64,000 bases of DNA. Source: an uncultured Methylococcaceae bacterium (GTDB taxonomy: Bacteria; Pseudomonadota; Gammaproteobacteria; Methylococcales; Methylomonadaceae). The notes beneath the pieces were generated by a model. The model saw nothing but the letters and a program-made list of their open reading frames with translations, was not told the DNA's origin and ran no database searches. The position numbers and the translations under genes are program-made. The stretch is from positions 24,588 through 88,587 of the forward strand of contig CAIYRS010000036.1 of assembly GCA_903928685.1 (NCBI GenBank), read 5' to 3'. Of the stretch, positions 53,602-62,339 are shown piece by piece; position 1 is the stretch's first letter, and each line of letters opens with the position of its first letter.

Positions 53602-54384
53602 ATGCGTAGAGTGATATTTAATCAAAAAGGCGGGGTGGGCAAATCCACTATTACCTGTAATTTGGCGGCGATCAATGCGGTTGAGGGTAGACGCACGCTG
53701 GTGATTGACTTAGATGTGCAAGGCAATTCCACGCAGTATTTGCTAGGCCGTAAAGTGACTGAAAGCGATAAAACCATCGCCTTGTTTTTTAAAGACAGCT
53801 TGAGCATATCGTTATTCGGCGGTAACAATGCCAACTCTGGCTTGGAAAACATCATCCACGAAACGCCGTTCCCCAATTTGTTCGTACTGCCTTCGCATCC
53901 TGAATTGGAGCCGCTGCAAGGCCGTTTGGAATCCCGCTTTAAAATCTTCAAGCTCAAAGAAGCCTTGGAAAAACTGCAAGGTTTCGACGACATCTACATC
54001 GACACACCGCCAATCTTAAATTTCTACAGCCAATCCGCGTTGATTGCCGCGCAAAAATGTCTGATCCCGTTCGATTGCGACACGTTTGCCCGTGAAGCTT
54101 TGTACACGCTGATGCACGCCATCGCCGAAGTCAGGGCTGACCATAATCAAAGCCTAGAAGTGGAAGGCATTATCGTCAACCAATACCAAAAACAAGCCAA
54201 CTTGCCACGGCAACTGGTTGAAGAACTGATTGCCGAAGGCTTGCCTGTGTTGACTTCAATGATTTCACCGTCGGTAAAAGTGCGCGAATCGCATTCGGTT
54301 TCCCAGCCATTAGTACATTACAAGCCGTATCATAAATTGACTGATGAATTCCGCGCCTTGTATGCGGAAATCCAGTCTAAATAA
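53602..54384 (+). CDS. ParA/MinD-type P-loop ATPase, solitary
   Basis: 260 residues. Deviant Walker A KGGVGKST at 9–16 with the signature lysine, then VIDLDVQGNSTQYL (the usual DPQGN has Val for Pro), Walker B DIYIDTPPIL and NQYQKQANLPRQLVEEL. Partitioning ATPases move chromosomes, plasmids or protein cargo. No ParB or parS-like site is visible beside it. Cargo unknown. It is followed 70 bp later by the radical SAM gene. Confidence 0.88.
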   Translation: MRRVIFNQKGGVGKSTITCNLAAINAVEGRRTLVIDLDVQGNSTQYLLGRKVTESDKTIALFFKDSLSISLFGGNNANSGLENIIHETPFPNLFVLPSHPELEPLQGRLESRFKIFKLKEALEKLQGFDDIYIDTPPILNFYSQSALIAAQKCLIPFDCDTFAREALYTLMHAIAEVRADHNQSLEVEGIIVNQYQKQANLPRQLVEELIAEGLPVLTSMISPSVKVRESHSVSQPLVHYKPYHKLTDEFRALYAEIQSK

Positions 54385-55833: not shown

Positions 55834-58800
55834 ATGAACAACAGCCAGTCTGACCAGTTAGATAAATACTATCAACAGGTACAAAGCATCATCCTTAATA
55901 AACAAGATTTTATCAGCGGCTTATTGCCAGCCAGCACCGCTATTACTGTGCATGGCAATTACACCGATGCTTGGGTAAGGGATAACGTCTATAGCATTTT
56001 GGCGGCGTGGGGTTTGGCGTTAGCTTACCGCAAAGCTGGCGTAGCTGAAGATAAGGTGTATGTGTTAGAACAAAGCACCGTTAAATTAATGCGTGGCTTA
56101 TTGACGGCAATGATGCGCCAAGCCGCTAAGGTGGAAAAATTTAAGCACAGCCAAAATCCCTTAGACGCACTGCACGCCAAATACGACACCCGCAGCGGCA
56201 ATGTGGTGGTTGGCGATAATGAATGGGGGCATTTGCAATTGGATGCCACCTCGCTATTTTTGCTGATGCTGGCGCAGATGATCGCCTCTGGTTTACGCAT
56301 TGTTTACACCATCGATGAAGTCAACTTTGTGCAAAACTTGGTGCATTACATCAGCCGCACTTACCGCACTCCCGATTACGGTATTTGGGAACGCGGCAAT
56401 AAAATCAACCACGGTATCGCCGAACTCAACGCCAGCTCCATTGGCATGTCCAAAGCGGCGATGGAAGCCATGTCCGGCTTTAATTTATTTGGCAAAGATG
56501 GCGGTCAAGCGTCTATCGTCCATGTCATCAGCGATGATATTGCCCGCACTCAAATTACCTTAGATTCGCTATTGCCGCGCGAATCCTTATCTAAAGAGGT
56601 CGATTCAGCGGTGTTAAGCGTGATTGGTTACCCGGCGTTCGCGGTTAAAAATCCTAGCATCCGCGCCAAAACCGAAAGCCTGATTTGTAGCAAACTCCAA
56701 GGCCGTTATGGCTGCAAACGCTTTTTGCTGGACGGTCACCAAACCGCCATCGAAGACCACAACCGCCTACATTACGATCCGCAAGAGCTTAAGCAATTCA
56801 TGCACATTGAATGCGAATGGCCGTTGTTTTTCTGTTATTTACTGTTGAACAAACTCTTCGCTGGCGAAACCGAAGCGGCGGCGGATTACCGCAGCAAACT
56901 GGAAAGCTTGCTGGTAGAAGAAAACGGGCAACTGTTATTGCCGGAACTCTACACCGTTCCCAAAGATTTGATTGCCGCCGAGAAAGCCCAACCGCAAAGC
57001 CAAACACGCACACCGAATGAAAACGTGCCGCTGGTTTGGGCGCAAAGCCTATTCATTTTAGGATGCTTAGTGCAAGACGGCCTACTCGATAAAGAAGATT
57101 TAGACCCGTTGGCACGGCACAAACAATTAGATGAGCACCACGAATACCGCCTGCAAGTCGCCTTATTGGCACAAGATGACAGCGTGCAACAGGAATTGGC
57201 GCAATACGGCATCCACGCCCAAACCTTGGCAGAAGTATCGCCGATTCAAATCCGCGAAGCCCATGAATTGGCGGGCGCATATACCCAAGTAGGCCGTAAC
57301 GACCGCATCGGCCTGACTGGCAGGCCATTCCGGCAATTGCGTACTTTGGCGACTTCAAAAATGTATATTTTGTCGAAAGAGCGCTTGGTGTTTTTACCGC
57401 AATGCCTTAACCAAAAAGGCTTTTATCTGGCGATGGACAACCGCTTATTGATTGATCGCTTGCGCCTAGAATTTTTGTACATCAACCGTTATTGGGACAG
57501 ACCCGGCAACCCGCTGGTGGTTATCACCATCAAACACAACATGCTGGCTAGCCACAAGCAAATCTTGATTGATTTCATCGAAGAACTTAGTAATGGTTCT
57601 AGCAATGGCGTACCGCTGTCGCTAGGCAATTTGGCGGATTTTGCCGACACCTGCAATTACGAAAAAATCAGTTACCTGCACGACTTTGAGTTTTCCAAAG
57701 CCAGTTGGCAAGAACCGGAACGCCCGTGGCTGCATGTGTTGCCGATGGCGCACACAGAGAACGCGCCGTTATCCGCTTACGAACTTAACCAATGGGAAAT
57801 TGCCGATGACGCTTTTTTGCTAAAGCAACTCACCAGCAATGCCAATCTGTACGCGCAACTGGAAGCGTTGACTTTATTAGCATTACGCCAAGGTTTGGCT
57901 TATCAATTACCCATCAGTAATGCTGAAGGTATTACTGGCACAGTCGCGGATTTGCTGGAAGAGATTTACCAACGCGCAGGCGACCAGCACGTCTGGTATG
58001 TAGTCAGACGTTGTGCCGGATTATTGGGCAAATACGACATCAATCTGGAACAAGCGGCGACTGATATTTTAGTGCGCCAACACCATTTAACCGTAGGCCG
58101 CGCCTACAGCGGCAAAGCCACCTTAGTCAGGCCGACTGATTCTTGGGAAATACTGGAAACCATCCGCACCTTTAATAATAACGATGCCAGCGAGTTTGTG
58201 ATTATTCAGGAGCTGATTTTATACCTGGGCATGTTAATCAAATCCAAAGCCGAATTGCTGGCGGACATCCACACCATCCGCGTAGGCCACATTCTGCAAC
58301 TGATTTTAGTCCGGCATAAACGCGAATTTAAATGCACTTTAGACCAAGCCTTTAACGAGATATTGGCCTTGCCGCCCTATCAGTTGGCAATGAAGCTAAA
58401 AGAAACCTTAGAAAATTACGGCAACACCGAAAACCAATTGGAACGGGTGGAATCCTTGCAATACGAAGGCGATTGCCAGGATTTACAAGCAGCGCGGTTT
58501 TCTGAAAGCATCAACCCAAATGACCGCGCTTTTGGTGAGGATTGGTACGAATGGCGCGAACACCAAGGCAGCGTCGGACGGGAAAATGAAGCCTTTTACG
58601 CCAGTGTTTGGAGTATTCTGCACCACTGCCAAGGCTTGATGATCGGCGTAAAACTCAACAGCAAACGCCGTTTGGATAGCGAAACCATTTTGTCGCAAAT
58701 GACTTCTGGCGAACAAAGTTTCAAGGTTTACGTCAACCATTTGCTCAATAAAATCCAAGCCCCGGTGTATCGGCAATTGACCGTGGAAGCCCTAAAAGCC

Positions 58801-59028
58801 ATCGCCTTTATTTTCCGCGACAGCACCGTACAAATCGATGATACCCTAGTCACCGATGTCATCATCGGTCACGCCGTGCGTATCAATTGGCTAACGGCGC
58901 ATCCGCAGCATCAAGATAATTACGACGAACACGTGGCAATGGCGTGGCAAAGTTTTTACCAACTACCGCCCCATCAAGTCGCCAACCGCATATTGGATGC
59001 TTTGCGGCATTTGTTGAATAATAAATAA
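55834..59028 (+). CDS. Bacterial homologue of phosphorylase kinase alpha/beta subunit (GH15-like)
   Basis: 1064 residues from MNNSQSDQLDKYYQQVQSII; the 42-codon upstream extension lacks conservation. It aligns by eye over most of its length with eukaryotic PHKA/PHKB: TDAWVRDNVYSILAAWGLAL, LMRGLLTAMMRQAAKVEKF, GHLQLDATSLFLLMLAQMI, TPDYGIWERGNKINHG, KAAMEAMSGFNLFGKDGG, FLLDGHQTAIEDHNRL, HIECEWPLFF and TGRPFRQLRTLATSKMY. The N-terminal half is a GH15 (alpha/alpha)6-type glucoamylase-like domain, followed by the helical PHK C-terminal region. Cytosolic (no signal). No catalytic gamma-type kinase is present. Glucokinase lies downstream. A glucan-binding or hydrolytic role is inferred. Confidence 0.85.
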   Translation: MNNSQSDQLDKYYQQVQSIILNKQDFISGLLPASTAITVHGNYTDAWVRDNVYSILAAWGLALAYRKAGVAEDKVYVLEQSTVKLMRGLLTAMMRQAAKVEKFKHSQNPLDALHAKYDTRSGNVVVGDNEWGHLQLDATSLFLLMLAQMIASGLRIVYTIDEVNFVQNLVHYISRTYRTPDYGIWERGNKINHGIAELNASSIGMSKAAMEAMSGFNLFGKDGGQASIVHVISDDIARTQITLDSLLPRESLSKEVDSAVLSVIGYPAFAVKNPSIRAKTESLICSKLQGRYGCKRFLLDGHQTAIEDHNRLHYDPQELKQFMHIECEWPLFFCYLLLNKLFAGETEAAADYRSKLESLLVEENGQLLLPELYTVPKDLIAAEKAQPQSQTRTPNENVPLVWAQSLFILGCLVQDGLLDKEDLDPLARHKQLDEHHEYRLQVALLAQDDSVQQELAQYGIHAQTLAEVSPIQIREAHELAGAYTQVGRNDRIGLTGRPFRQLRTLATSKMYILSKERLVFLPQCLNQKGFYLAMDNRLLIDRLRLEFLYINRYWDRPGNPLVVITIKHNMLASHKQILIDFIEELSNGSSNGVPLSLGNLADFADTCNYEKISYLHDFEFSKASWQEPERPWLHVLPMAHTENAPLSAYELNQWEIADDAFLLKQLTSNANLYAQLEALTLLALRQGLAYQLPISNAEGITGTVADLLEEIYQRAGDQHVWYVVRRCAGLLGKYDINLEQAATDILVRQHHLTVGRAYSGKATLVRPTDSWEILETIRTFNNNDASEFVIIQELILYLGMLIKSKAELLADIHTIRVGHILQLILVRHKREFKCTLDQAFNEILALPPYQLAMKLKETLENYGNTENQLERVESLQYEGDCQDLQAARFSESINPNDRAFGEDWYEWREHQGSVGRENEAFYASVWSILHHCQGLMIGVKLNSKRRLDSETILSQMTSGEQSFKVYVNHLLNKIQAPVYRQLTVEALKAIAFIFRDSTVQIDDTLVTDVIIGHAVRINWLTAHPQHQDNYDEHVAMAWQSFYQLPPHQVANRILDALRHLLNNK

Positions 59029-59057
59029 AGGATAATTTCCGTAAAAATGGAACATAA

Positions 59058-59399
59058 ATGAACCCAGTTAAAGAAGCACTCCCTTTCATTAAAATGAATC
59101 TTGGAACGTATGGTATCGAATGGATAAATACGGATCGAGCGAGTACAAATTTTAAATTCCTTATTTTTGGTCGACCTAATTTTGGAAAACAATTTGGAAT
59201 TTATCAGAGAGAAACTACTGTAATAAGGTTAGAAAAATATGATCAAATTATTGAAGGTATAACAATTCAACATAAGTGCGCAAAATCTCACGCGGCAGAG
59301 TCAGAATACTCAAACTTCAAAAACGAGCGAGGTGACTGTGTGTCAGTAGAAAACACAATATCTCTCAAAAAACTCTTAGATTGGTACTACAACGTTTAA
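59058..59399 (+). CDS. Hypothetical protein
   Basis: 113 residues, starting 29 bp after the PHK-like gene. The protein is soluble and basic (EWINTDRASTNFKFLIFGRP, RLEKYDQIIEGITIQH, SLKKLLDWYYNV). A/T-rich and with different codon use from its neighbours, which suggests recent acquisition. No family recognised. Confidence 0.55.
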   Translation: MNPVKEALPFIKMNLGTYGIEWINTDRASTNFKFLIFGRPNFGKQFGIYQRETTVIRLEKYDQIIEGITIQHKCAKSHAAESEYSNFKNERGDCVSVENTISLKKLLDWYYNV

Positions 59400-59453
59400 T
59401 CGACATTTGTTGACCCGATTTTTGAATAAAATGATGATCCAACTTTAATACAT

Positions 59454-59532
59454 ATAGGATGTGCCGACGACAGGAGGCGCATCAATCGCGTACAAACTCG
59501 ACAGATGCGCTTCGTTCCTCAGCACATCCTAT
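59454..59532. repeat. REP element ATAGGATGTGCCGACG…
   Basis: A 79-bp imperfect palindrome: ATAGGATGTGCCGACGACAG at one end and CTCAGCACATCCTAT at the other, with GGCGCATC/GATGCGC inside. Its reverse complement matches 62360–62446 closely. In the 304-bp gap before glk. Confidence 0.82.
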
Positions 59533-59608
59533 GACTTTGCTCACGGATTTTTCCTTAGCTTAAGGGCGATGACACCAGAACGTAGGAACTATAAATAATG
59601 TTTTTTGT

Positions 59609-59663
59609 GTCCACGAAAAATACCGTCCAAATACTTTCGTGCCTTTTCGTGCCGTTCGTGGAC
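59609..59663. repeat. Repeat GTCCACGAA…TTCGTGGAC
   Basis: 9-bp perfect arms enclosing TTTCGTGCCTTTTCGTGCCG, directly upstream of glk. The same TTCGTG-rich unit occurs at 63709–63751. Confidence 0.7.
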
Positions 59664-59703
59664 AAACCCAATAAAAATAACAACCAGCACTAAGGTGAAC
59701 AGC

Positions 59704-60681
59704 ATGATACTCGCAGGTGATATAGGCGGCACTAAAACCACATTGTCGTTACAACAAAAACAAGCCGATGGCAGTTTAACGTGCCTTTTGGAACAAACTT
59801 TTGCCAGCCAAGATTATCCGCAGTTTGATGCGGTGCTAGCCGCGTTTTTACCAAAAGACATCGCCGTCACCTCAGCCTGTTTTGGTATCGCCGGCCCTGT
59901 GGTAAACCAACGCTGCCAAACCACCAATTTGCCGTGGTTGGTTGATGGCGAACACTTAAAACAACAATTAAAAACCGAGCAAGTAAAACTGCTGAATGAT
60001 TTGGAAGCCATGGCCTTGGGTATGCTGGTGCTGCCGGAACAAGATTTAGTAGAACTAAACCCCAACGCTCAAACGCAAACTGGCAATATCGCCGTGATAG
60101 CAGCAGGCACAGGTTTAGGGGAAGCGATTTTATATTGGGATGGCAAACAACATTTACCGATGGCAACCGAAGGCGGTCACAGCGATTTTGCGCCATTAAC
60201 CAGCCAACAAGATTTATTGCTAGGCTATCTTCGCCAACGCTTTACCGAACACGTCAGTTATGAACGCATCCTAGCGGGCGTCGGCTTCAGCCATTTGTAT
60301 GATTTTTTAGTGGAATACGGCTTCGCCCCCGCCTGCCTAGCCGTGCCAGAAATCGGCAGCCCAGACATCGACCGAAATGCCGTCATCTCCCGCTTAGGCA
60401 TTAACGGCGAAGATGCCTTATGCGCCGAAGCGGTAAGGCTGTTTGTCGAAATTTATGGTGCAGAAGCTGGAAATTTAGCGTTGAAATCCCTAGCAGTCGG
60501 CGGCGTATTTATCGGCGGCGGTATCGGCCCAAAAATCCGCACCGCCTTAGAAAACGGCGCGTTTATGCAGGCCTTCACCAGCAAAGGCCGATTTGCGCCG
60601 CTTTTGTCAACTGTTTCGGTAAAACTGGCTACCAATCCGCGTACGCCTTTGTTGGGGGCGATTAATTATTTCAATGGTTGA
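59704..60681 (+). CDS. glk: Glucokinase
   Basis: 325 residues from MILAGDIGGTKTTLSL, with AAGGTGA 7 nt upstream; a longer frame runs through a repeat and is rejected. It phosphorylates glucose with ATP. Phosphate-loop DIGGTKT, glucose-binding NDLEAMALGM with catalytic Asp, PGTGLGEA-like AAGTGLGEAILYWDG, EGGHSDFAP and the C-terminal GGGIGPKI fit the bacterial ROK-independent glucokinase family. Complete. Next to the PHK-like protein, suggesting a glucan/glucose theme. Confidence 0.94.
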   Translation: MILAGDIGGTKTTLSLQQKQADGSLTCLLEQTFASQDYPQFDAVLAAFLPKDIAVTSACFGIAGPVVNQRCQTTNLPWLVDGEHLKQQLKTEQVKLLNDLEAMALGMLVLPEQDLVELNPNAQTQTGNIAVIAAGTGLGEAILYWDGKQHLPMATEGGHSDFAPLTSQQDLLLGYLRQRFTEHVSYERILAGVGFSHLYDFLVEYGFAPACLAVPEIGSPDIDRNAVISRLGINGEDALCAEAVRLFVEIYGAEAGNLALKSLAVGGVFIGGGIGPKIRTALENGAFMQAFTSKGRFAPLLSTVSVKLATNPRTPLLGAINYFNG

Positions 60682-60881: not shown

Positions 60882-62339
60882 ATGATTATATCCCCCAATC
60901 AAAAAAGCATTTGCGAACGTGTCATCAACGCTTTTGAAACTGGCAGTGCTGATGGTGATTATTCCAATATCTCTATTTATCACGACGGCCCTAATCGCAT
61001 TCGACAAATTACCTATGGTCGGGCTCAAACCACCGAATATAGCCACTTGCGTGAATTAGTGGAAATGTATATCAACGCTAACGGAATGTACGCCGCGTCC
61101 ATGAGGGAATATCTGCCACTGATTGAACATACTCCACTGGTTGATAACACTGAGTTCAAAAATTTGCTACGCAAAGCTGGATCGGAAGATTCAATCATGA
61201 GGGAAACCCAAGATCAGCTCTTCGATGCCAAGTATTATCAACCTGCGCTTAAGTGGGCGGGCGACAACGGCTTTACCCTAGCGCTTTCGCTTCTGGTTAT
61301 CTATGACTCTTTCATTCACAGCGGTGGAATTTTGAAGCTAATTCGTTCACGCTTTCCAGAAATACCACCTGCACAAGGAGGCGACGAGAAAGTCTGGATT
61401 ACCCAGTATGTCGATGCACGGCAGAATTGGCTGGCTAACCATAGCAATCCCGAGCTGCATGCCACTGTCTATCGGACAAAGTGCTTCCAAAGGGAAATCA
61501 ACCGCAGTAACTGGGATTTAGCCCTAACTCCCATCAACGCTAACGGTGTCATGGTCAGTGCCAAGGCTGCGACTAGCTTAACTCAAATTGATTTTGCAAC
61601 CATAAACCAGAACTTAGCAAATGGGGAGATTCCTTTCCTCGGTGATCCGCACCTAACTGGGGAGGCTGGGTCGATTGTGAGCGCACTCGCTGCCACGTCC
61701 ATTGCTACGGATTCGCAAGGGTTTGAAGCCCAATCCGCAACGATTTCAGAAGGAGAGTGGAATTTTTTTGGTCGTCAAAATTATAATTTGTCCGGAACAG
61801 TCACCCATGTAGGACATAAAGAGGGTGAGGACGGATACTATCAGCGGGTAGGTTTATATTGGAGTCAGGGAGTGGGTCGTGATGACTTGGATGGTCGAGA
61901 TCATGACTGGCCGTGGTCAGCGGCTTTCATTTCTTGGGTCATGGGAAAAGCGGGAGCCGGAACGCGCTTCCACAACGCTGCGCAACATTCCCAATACATC
62001 AGCAAAGCCATCCGTGACCGCATCCAAGGTAATGACAAAGCTGGATATTGGGGTTATCGCCTCAACGAGATGAAACCAAAAATCGGTGACATTGTTTGTT
62101 GGGGTCGCGAAATCGGGGTAGATTACGATCATCAACATCAAGGAGACTATTCGGGTCACTGCGATATTGTAGTGGCGGTTAATAGTAACCAGATTGAGGT
62201 AATCGGTGGCAATGTAGGCAACTCTGTTACCCGTCGACCGCTAGCCTTAGATACCCAAGGCTACCTGCAATCCACCGTGCAGGGCGGCGAAAACCTGTTT
62301 GCCCTGATGTCTTGCCGGATTTCCTCATCTAACGCCTAA
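60882..62339 (+). CDS. GH46 chitosanase fused to a C-terminal DUF2272 domain
   Basis: 485 residues. The N-terminal part (1–about 225) is GH46-like: ISPNQKSICERVINAFETG, YHDGPNRIRQITYGRAQTTE, RETQDQLFDAKYYQPALKWA and LLVIYDSFIHSGGI. Glu19 and Asp35 are likely the acid/base pair. The C-terminal part (about 285–480) is DUF2272, an NlpC/CHAP-like hydrolase family: DWPWSAAFISWVMGKAG, KPKIGDIVCWGR, HCDIVVAV, IEVIGGNVGNSVTRR. No signal peptide. It could be a secreted enzyme, a lysin or an interbacterial effector; none is shown. Confidence 0.8.
   Translation: MIISPNQKSICERVINAFETGSADGDYSNISIYHDGPNRIRQITYGRAQTTEYSHLRELVEMYINANGMYAASMREYLPLIEHTPLVDNTEFKNLLRKAGSEDSIMRETQDQLFDAKYYQPALKWAGDNGFTLALSLLVIYDSFIHSGGILKLIRSRFPEIPPAQGGDEKVWITQYVDARQNWLANHSNPELHATVYRTKCFQREINRSNWDLALTPINANGVMVSAKAATSLTQIDFATINQNLANGEIPFLGDPHLTGEAGSIVSALAATSIATDSQGFEAQSATISEGEWNFFGRQNYNLSGTVTHVGHKEGEDGYYQRVGLYWSQGVGRDDLDGRDHDWPWSAAFISWVMGKAGAGTRFHNAAQHSQYISKAIRDRIQGNDKAGYWGYRLNEMKPKIGDIVCWGREIGVDYDHQHQGDYSGHCDIVVAVNSNQIEVIGGNVGNSVTRRPLALDTQGYLQSTVQGGENLFALMSCRISSSNA

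Follow-up and report, generated by a model that had tools for sequence, protein, structure and literature searches.

The window analysed here, a 64,000-nucleotide stretch of contig CAIYRS010000036.1 from an uncultured Methylococcaceae bacterium, encodes a full-length relative of the alpha and beta regulatory subunits of phosphorylase kinase (PHK). This protein is probably an active enzyme; our best explanation is a cytosolic exo-alpha-glucosidase of the inverting type, which would supply the glucokinase encoded by the adjoining gene, glk, with glucose from glycogen or maltodextrins. The open reading frame (ORF) runs from an ATG at 55834 to a TAA at 59026-59028 and encodes 1064 amino acids (aa). 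Pfam matched Glyco_hydro_15 to residues 8-818 (E 1.6e-80) and KPBB_C to residues 831-1063 (E 8.8e-95, 316.8 bits against a cut-off of 27), the domain succession that defines the PHK alpha/beta family. Among solved chains with E values up to 1, only PHK alpha (E 2.1e-214) and PHK beta (E 9.9e-167) were matched by sequence, and both matches extended from the N-terminus into the C-terminal region. The D2-D5 scaffold of PHK was also retained. These findings confirm that the protein is a PHK alpha/beta family member of full architecture. The first-pass annotation had claimed similarity over both the GH15-like domain and the C-terminal region, and this was borne out; similarity limited to GH15, which it had named as the refuting result, was rejected on the KPBB_C match and the reach of the PHK alpha and beta matches. 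A whole-genome profile search gave no other Glyco_hydro_15 match. No signal peptide was seen, by eye, at the N-terminus (MNNSQSDQLDKYYQ).

The protein has an (alpha/alpha)6-barrel like that of characterised GH15 members. In the structure model E186, E371 and Y43 lie, by helix order, between helices matching the GH15 loops, with low confidence in the loops themselves. Passages of the dextran dextrinase paper (PMC12446779) assign the GH15 general acid to the alpha5-alpha6 loop and the general base to the alpha11-alpha12 loop, describe a Tyr of the alpha1-alpha2 loop that bonds to the general base, and note a Trp in the alpha3-alpha4 loop of alpha-1,4-specific glucoamylases. The spacing from Y43 to Asp (+7) equals that of Tyr337/Asp344 in TtGA and Tyr326/Asp333 in AgGD. 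Profiles were compared twice against seven true GH15 rows (hhalign E values 0.00037 and 0.00024, with probabilities of only 36 and 43%), and both alignments paired Y43, W47, R49, D50, E186 and E371 with Y260, W264, R266, D267, E391 and E556 of L149. Both catalytic glutamates, whose retention had been raised as a check in the first-pass annotation, are present as E186 and E371. The exact register of W131 against the glucoamylase Trp is in part tentative.

Seven positions (Y43, W47, R49, D50, W131, E186 and E371) did not vary in any of the 209 distinct bacterial rows, which remained from 221 after identical ones were removed; the first 700 residues of each were used, and some genomes, reached by two routes, were counted twice. 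Eighty loci had been fetched with patterns including HG[ND]Y and VRDN and are not independent for Y43, W47, R49 and D50. The other 141 rows (120 listed proteins, the window and 20 loci; nearly all Methylococcales) were not selected by these patterns and carry the same active-site residues. The residue pair at the base was Pro-Glu in 208 rows and Ala-Glu in one. A Gly-Glu dyad at this place, the criterion given in PMC12446779 for the retaining GH15-like transglucosidases of dextran dextrinase type, was absent in all 209. Catalysis by the bacterial protein is likely; the Trp of the alpha3-alpha4 loop would point to a preference for alpha-1,4 linkages, and Pro-Glu instead of Gly-Glu to an inverting mechanism.

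In PHK, the Asp68-Arg94 helix of alpha takes part in the alpha-beta contact, as described in PMC10978961. Many residues of its counterpart, residues 78-104 of the window protein, are invariant in bacteria, and this strong conservation leads us to predict a homodimer held by the helix that pairs alpha D1 with beta D1 in PHK. The conserved helix would also suit a catalytically silent sensor of glucan or glucose that binds glucokinase or another enzyme and tunes its activity, as PHK alpha and beta do. The relative PHK alpha is silent, the scaffold domains are kept, and coupling to glk would fit a protein partner. However, invariance at seven active-site positions exceeds the needs of binding alone, and three genomes from other clades pair the gene with glgB and glgX, with or without malQ, and not with glk. 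We consider such a sensor unlikely.

The link between the PHK-like gene and glk was analysed by comparing KPBB_C and glucokinase positions in the 151 genomes of the host's family. KPBB_C occurred in 80 of them, and in 70 of these 80 glk lay directly downstream on the same strand. The distance from the KPBB_C end to the glucokinase domain start was 12-114 bp in 69 genomes and 685 bp in the host. In the remaining ten, glk was elsewhere in eight (on another contig in seven, far off on the same contig in one) and was not found in two (G076 and G106, both listed as under 80% complete). Among named loci, glk followed the PHK-like gene in 56 of 67 non-cyanobacterial cases, and five of the other eleven were cut by a contig end. 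The 56 junctions, computed from the longest reading frame, included twelve 4-base overlaps (several ATGA), six 17-base overlaps and thirty gaps of 2-13 bp; the five values between -94 and -154 are probably due to start codons lying further upstream. In the window, glk starts at an ATG at 59704, 675 bp after the PHK-like stop, exactly as first annotated. This distance understates the link, because the genes abut or overlap in most relatives and an insertion is present here. The arrangement suggests co-transcription of the PHK-like gene with glk. All seven PHK-positive genomes with two glucokinase matches had one of them beside the PHK-like gene, the PHK match being a fragment in G083. There (G083:C6:20820-21107), a 112-aa frame with a partial KPBB_C immediately precedes glk; it could be what is left of a decayed PHK-like gene or the result of a break in the assembly. 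Dependence of glucokinase on the PHK-like protein was also considered and found unsupported: glk was present in 133 of the 151 genomes and PHK in 80 only.

Outside the family, seven genomes were PHK-positive, and a glgB/glgX cluster accompanied the gene in three. The genes run glgB-glgX-malQ-PHK consecutively on a single strand in G435 and PHK-glgB-glgX in G292; in G308, a congener of G292, the gene clusters and their order match those of G292. PF00343 glycogen phosphorylase was present in four of the seven and absent in G435, G308 and G336 (L033, L036 and L034), each listed as 100% complete; a dedicated phosphorylase regulator would make no sense in these three. It was also not found in the PHK-positive family genomes G025 and G111 (listed as 76 and 85% complete). 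In G336, G518, G490 and G498, scans of one or two neighbours each revealed no glg gene, and no glk was nearby. No glk was detected in 13 cyanobacterial loci by blastp with the glk of the window. A divergent gene cluster recurred in six of the 13; its two scanned members were WecG-type glycosyltransferases, and none of six cyanobacterial neighbour proteins scanned was a glg enzyme. The first-pass proposal of a cytosolic glucan hydrolase or sensor thus holds as regards a cytosolic glucan role, with its first half favoured and its second less so, because no row compared departs at the catalytic residues, most relatives have glk as the next gene, the gene lies in glg clusters in some other bacteria, and some genomes with the gene lack phosphorylase.

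Mutant phenotypes in a methanotroph are compatible with a glycogen hydrolase upstream of glk. According to PMC8062543, a gdh/glk double mutant of Methylotuvimicrobium alcaliphilum had 690-fold less glycogen on methane and more glucose (50-fold on methane, 32-fold on methanol), and a single glk mutant, cited there from another paper, had 50-fold less glycogen. The authors inferred permanent glycogen breakdown and named GlgP, GlgX and MalQ as sources; the words glucoamylase, GH15 and phosphorylase kinase are absent from the main text. A passage of PMC6406325 suggests that Glk recovers glucose from glycogen. In Methylomicrobium sp. wino1 (L093), a member of the same genus as M. alcaliphilum, the PHK-like gene precedes glk. 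The PHK-like gene would add a candidate for the glucose release that PMC8062543 ascribes to GlgP, GlgX and MalQ. In the mechanism we propose, the PHK-like enzyme, acting as a homodimer and co-transcribed with glk, would release glucose from glycogen or maltodextrins in the cytosol, and the glucokinase encoded next door would phosphorylate it.

Several points weigh against this mechanism. The active-site loops, and with them the catalytic geometry, are poorly modelled (low predicted local distance difference test score). Free glucose in glk mutants is explicable by MalQ too. PHK-glk coupling may be weakened in this very genome, where a 113-aa ORF and repeats intervene. The best GH15 fold match of the model is isomaltose glucohydrolase, a name that we take from PMC12446779. 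This match, together with a weak NCBIfam match to trehalase TreH1 (27.5 bits against a cut-off of 820) and the rise of trehalose in glk mutants reported in PMC8062543, would suit a GH15 hydrolase of another alpha-glucoside from glycogen turnover (isomaltose, trehalose or maltose) that still feeds glucokinase. However, W131 lies in the loop where alpha-1,4-specific glucoamylases carry Trp, and the glg-cluster context points to glycogen or maltodextrin; we regard a hydrolase of this kind as quite improbable.

A whole-genome PF00069 search revealed three Hanks-type kinase domains, two on contig C108 and one on C56, whereas the PHK-like gene is on C36. The best of them was nearest PknB in structure matches (best 60 of 2,777). 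By NCBIfam, the second was nearest PknB and the third was placed with kinase models and repeat-bearing models of effector type; none of the three had a match above the cut-off. No PHK gamma subunit was identified among the three, and no Hanks-type kinase domain was found in the five neighbouring ORFs scanned. The absence of the kinase stated in the first-pass annotation holds in a narrow sense: the genome has Hanks-type kinases, but no gamma-type gene adjoins the PHK-like gene. This picture speaks against a PHK-like kinase complex without disproving one; a partner could be encoded elsewhere. The genome also has one glycogen phosphorylase (profile search), two Glyco_transf_5 (glycogen synthase type) matches and alpha-amylase family matches in frames of 739 and 712 aa, perhaps GlgB and GlgX by size; glycogen metabolism is therefore present in the host. 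A single phosphorylase and three kinase domains would suit a bacterial PHK in pieces, that is, a phosphorylase regulator working with a Hanks-type kinase encoded elsewhere. But the kinases are on other contigs and PknB-like or mixed, three of the seven PHK-positive genomes outside the family are without PF00343 phosphorylase, and the CaaX farnesylation motif, described in PMC10978961 for the C-terminus of PHK subunits, is missing: the window protein ends in LLNNK, and Cys at position -4 was found in 0 of 214 bacterial full-length rows. A PHK in pieces is thus very improbable indeed. Replacement of GlgP by the PHK-like protein in Methylococcales was likewise rejected, with GlgP present in 140 of the 151 family genomes and in the host.

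Table 1. Features of the PHK-like gene and its surroundings in the window
Feature	Position	Strand	Basis
PHK alpha/beta-like GH15 protein, 1064 aa	55834..59028	+	ORF, Pfam, structure-sequence matches
D1, GH15-like (alpha/alpha)6-barrel domain, residues about 8-430	55855..57123	+	
H40-G41-N42-Y43 active-site loop; Y43 aligned with the GH15 Tyr contacting the general base	55951..55962	+	profile alignment
W131, alpha3-alpha4 loop, where alpha-1,4-specific glucoamylases have Trp	56224..56226	+	
E186, predicted general acid (PHK alpha Glu185)	56389..56391	+	
E371, predicted general base (PHK alpha Glu371; Lys in PHK beta)	56944..56946	+	
KPBB_C domain, residues 831-1063, C-terminal region common to PHK alpha/beta	58324..59022	+	Pfam
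Interval of 675 bp between PHK-like gene and glk, peculiar to this genome (mostly -17 to +13 bp in relatives)	59029..59703	+	
113-aa ORF without Pfam family	59058..59399	+	
Dispersed repeat of about 107 bp with imperfect palindrome	59448..59554	.	genome search
Glucokinase (PF02685, E 2.4e-98), 325 aa, usual neighbour in relatives	59704..60681	+	Pfam

The 113-aa ORF in the interval has eight database homologues (61-68% identity) and a near-identical copy of its own, most of them on short contigs. A genome search with the interval gave at least 59 alignments, a figure that counts self matches and reverse-strand duplicates; 40 of 135 candidates were scored, so the copy number is a rough minimum. 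Besides the repeat of about 107 bp, a further short one (59632-59677) recurs in the genome, and copies of the repeats, full or partial, number in the dozens elsewhere; a 13-bp near-repeat of the PHK 3' end at 59401-59413 is perhaps a trace of insertion. Elsewhere in the window, 60882-62339 encodes a 485-aa protein with an unusual fusion of a GH46 (chitosanase-like) domain to a C-terminal DUF2272/CHAP-like domain, and a ParA-like ATPase gene (53602-54384) lies two genes upstream, adjoining a PA0069-family radical SAM gene.

The PHK-like family is common and already known in databases, where its members are annotated as 'glycoside hydrolase family 15 protein' or 'phosphorylase kinase alpha/beta subunit'; its biology has been neglected. 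New here are the data that make an enzyme the most likely reading of the bacterial form. The host is a methanotroph of the Methylococcales, and the best named protein matches were from Methylovulum, Methylobacter and other members of that order. KPBB_C was found in 8 of 398 genomes of the host's phylum, the host genome counted, and among 14 control genomes only in Synechococcus elongatus. A pattern scan of named genomes revealed at least 573 loci encoding a relative, of which the best 80 were retained (13 cyanobacterial and 67 others, mainly Methylococcales). In unrooted trees, PHK alpha and PHK beta were nearest the cyanobacterial members, with long branches and 65/88 support for the pair, and Proteobacteria formed one side of a branch with 69/97 support. 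The first tree had 44 rows, the second omitted L033, L119, L049, L042, L036 and L121, and both had two eukaryotic rows only. An ancestral role, as first suggested, is plausible and, with unrooted trees, weak support and two eukaryotic rows, unproven.

Comparison with animal PHK makes such an origin attractive and testable. Parts of PMC10978961 present the GH15 domains of human PHK alpha and beta as a puzzle: the alpha site is called intact (Glu185, Glu371) and enzyme-like, yet alpha is inactive on maltose, isomaltose and glycogen. D1 of the window protein is identical to human PHK alpha at 232 of 417 positions (56%) and to PHKB at 183 of 423, and alpha and beta are 48% identical to each other. 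The human alpha row retains W47, R49, D50, W131, E186 and E371, but it is six residues short at the HG[ND]Y loop, where a Gln stands opposite Y43. This shorter loop could be the reason for the reported inactivity of PHK alpha, a proposal drawn from one eukaryotic alpha sequence; against it, the nearest Tyr is two residues further out, and a local shift could restore it. The PHK beta row is without Y43, W47, R49, W131 and E371 (Lys). Animal PHK alpha and beta might derive from an enzyme of the bacterial kind, alpha having been silenced by the shortened loop and beta by loss of the base, and both recruited as scaffold and regulator of the kinase. If so, hydrolysis was the trade of these subunits before they became regulators. 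More tentatively, and at somewhat less than even chances, we propose the whole course: a bacterial homodimeric GH15 glycogen hydrolase, which methanotrophs couple to glucokinase and some other bacteria use in place of glycogen phosphorylase, would have passed to eukaryotes, been duplicated and silenced, and been made into a scaffold controlling a kinase that acts on phosphorolysis. That animal PHK subunits are retired enzymes is plausible, though unproven.

Among the open-licence PMC matches listed, we found neither a functional study of a bacterial PHK alpha/beta nor a bacterial protein of this architecture with measured activity. The bacterial protein shares with PHKA and PHKB the order of GH15-like D1 and KPBB_C, and with PHKA both glutamates. 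Unlike them, it has no CaaX end and no adjoining gamma kinase gene, and in most relatives its gene adjoins glucokinase; it is about 160 residues shorter than PHKA (1064 versus 1223 aa) and has the HG[ND]Y loop missing from the PHKA row. A bacterial relative with the same domain plan, full catalytic residues, an unshortened loop and a glucokinase neighbour makes the PHK puzzle testable. With the GH15 alpha-glucohydrolases (glucoamylase, glucodextranase, isomaltose glucohydrolase and GH15 trehalase) it has in common the (alpha/alpha)6-barrel, general acid, general base, alpha1-alpha2 loop Tyr and W-x-R-D motif; it differs in the extra domains D2-D5, in Leu instead of Gln after the base, and in an identity of 12-17% over the barrel. 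GlgP (GT35) occupies the same predicted place in the pathway, removing glucose at non-reducing ends, but has an unrelated fold and yields glucose 1-phosphate, whereas the PHK-like protein would give free glucose that requires glucokinase and ATP.
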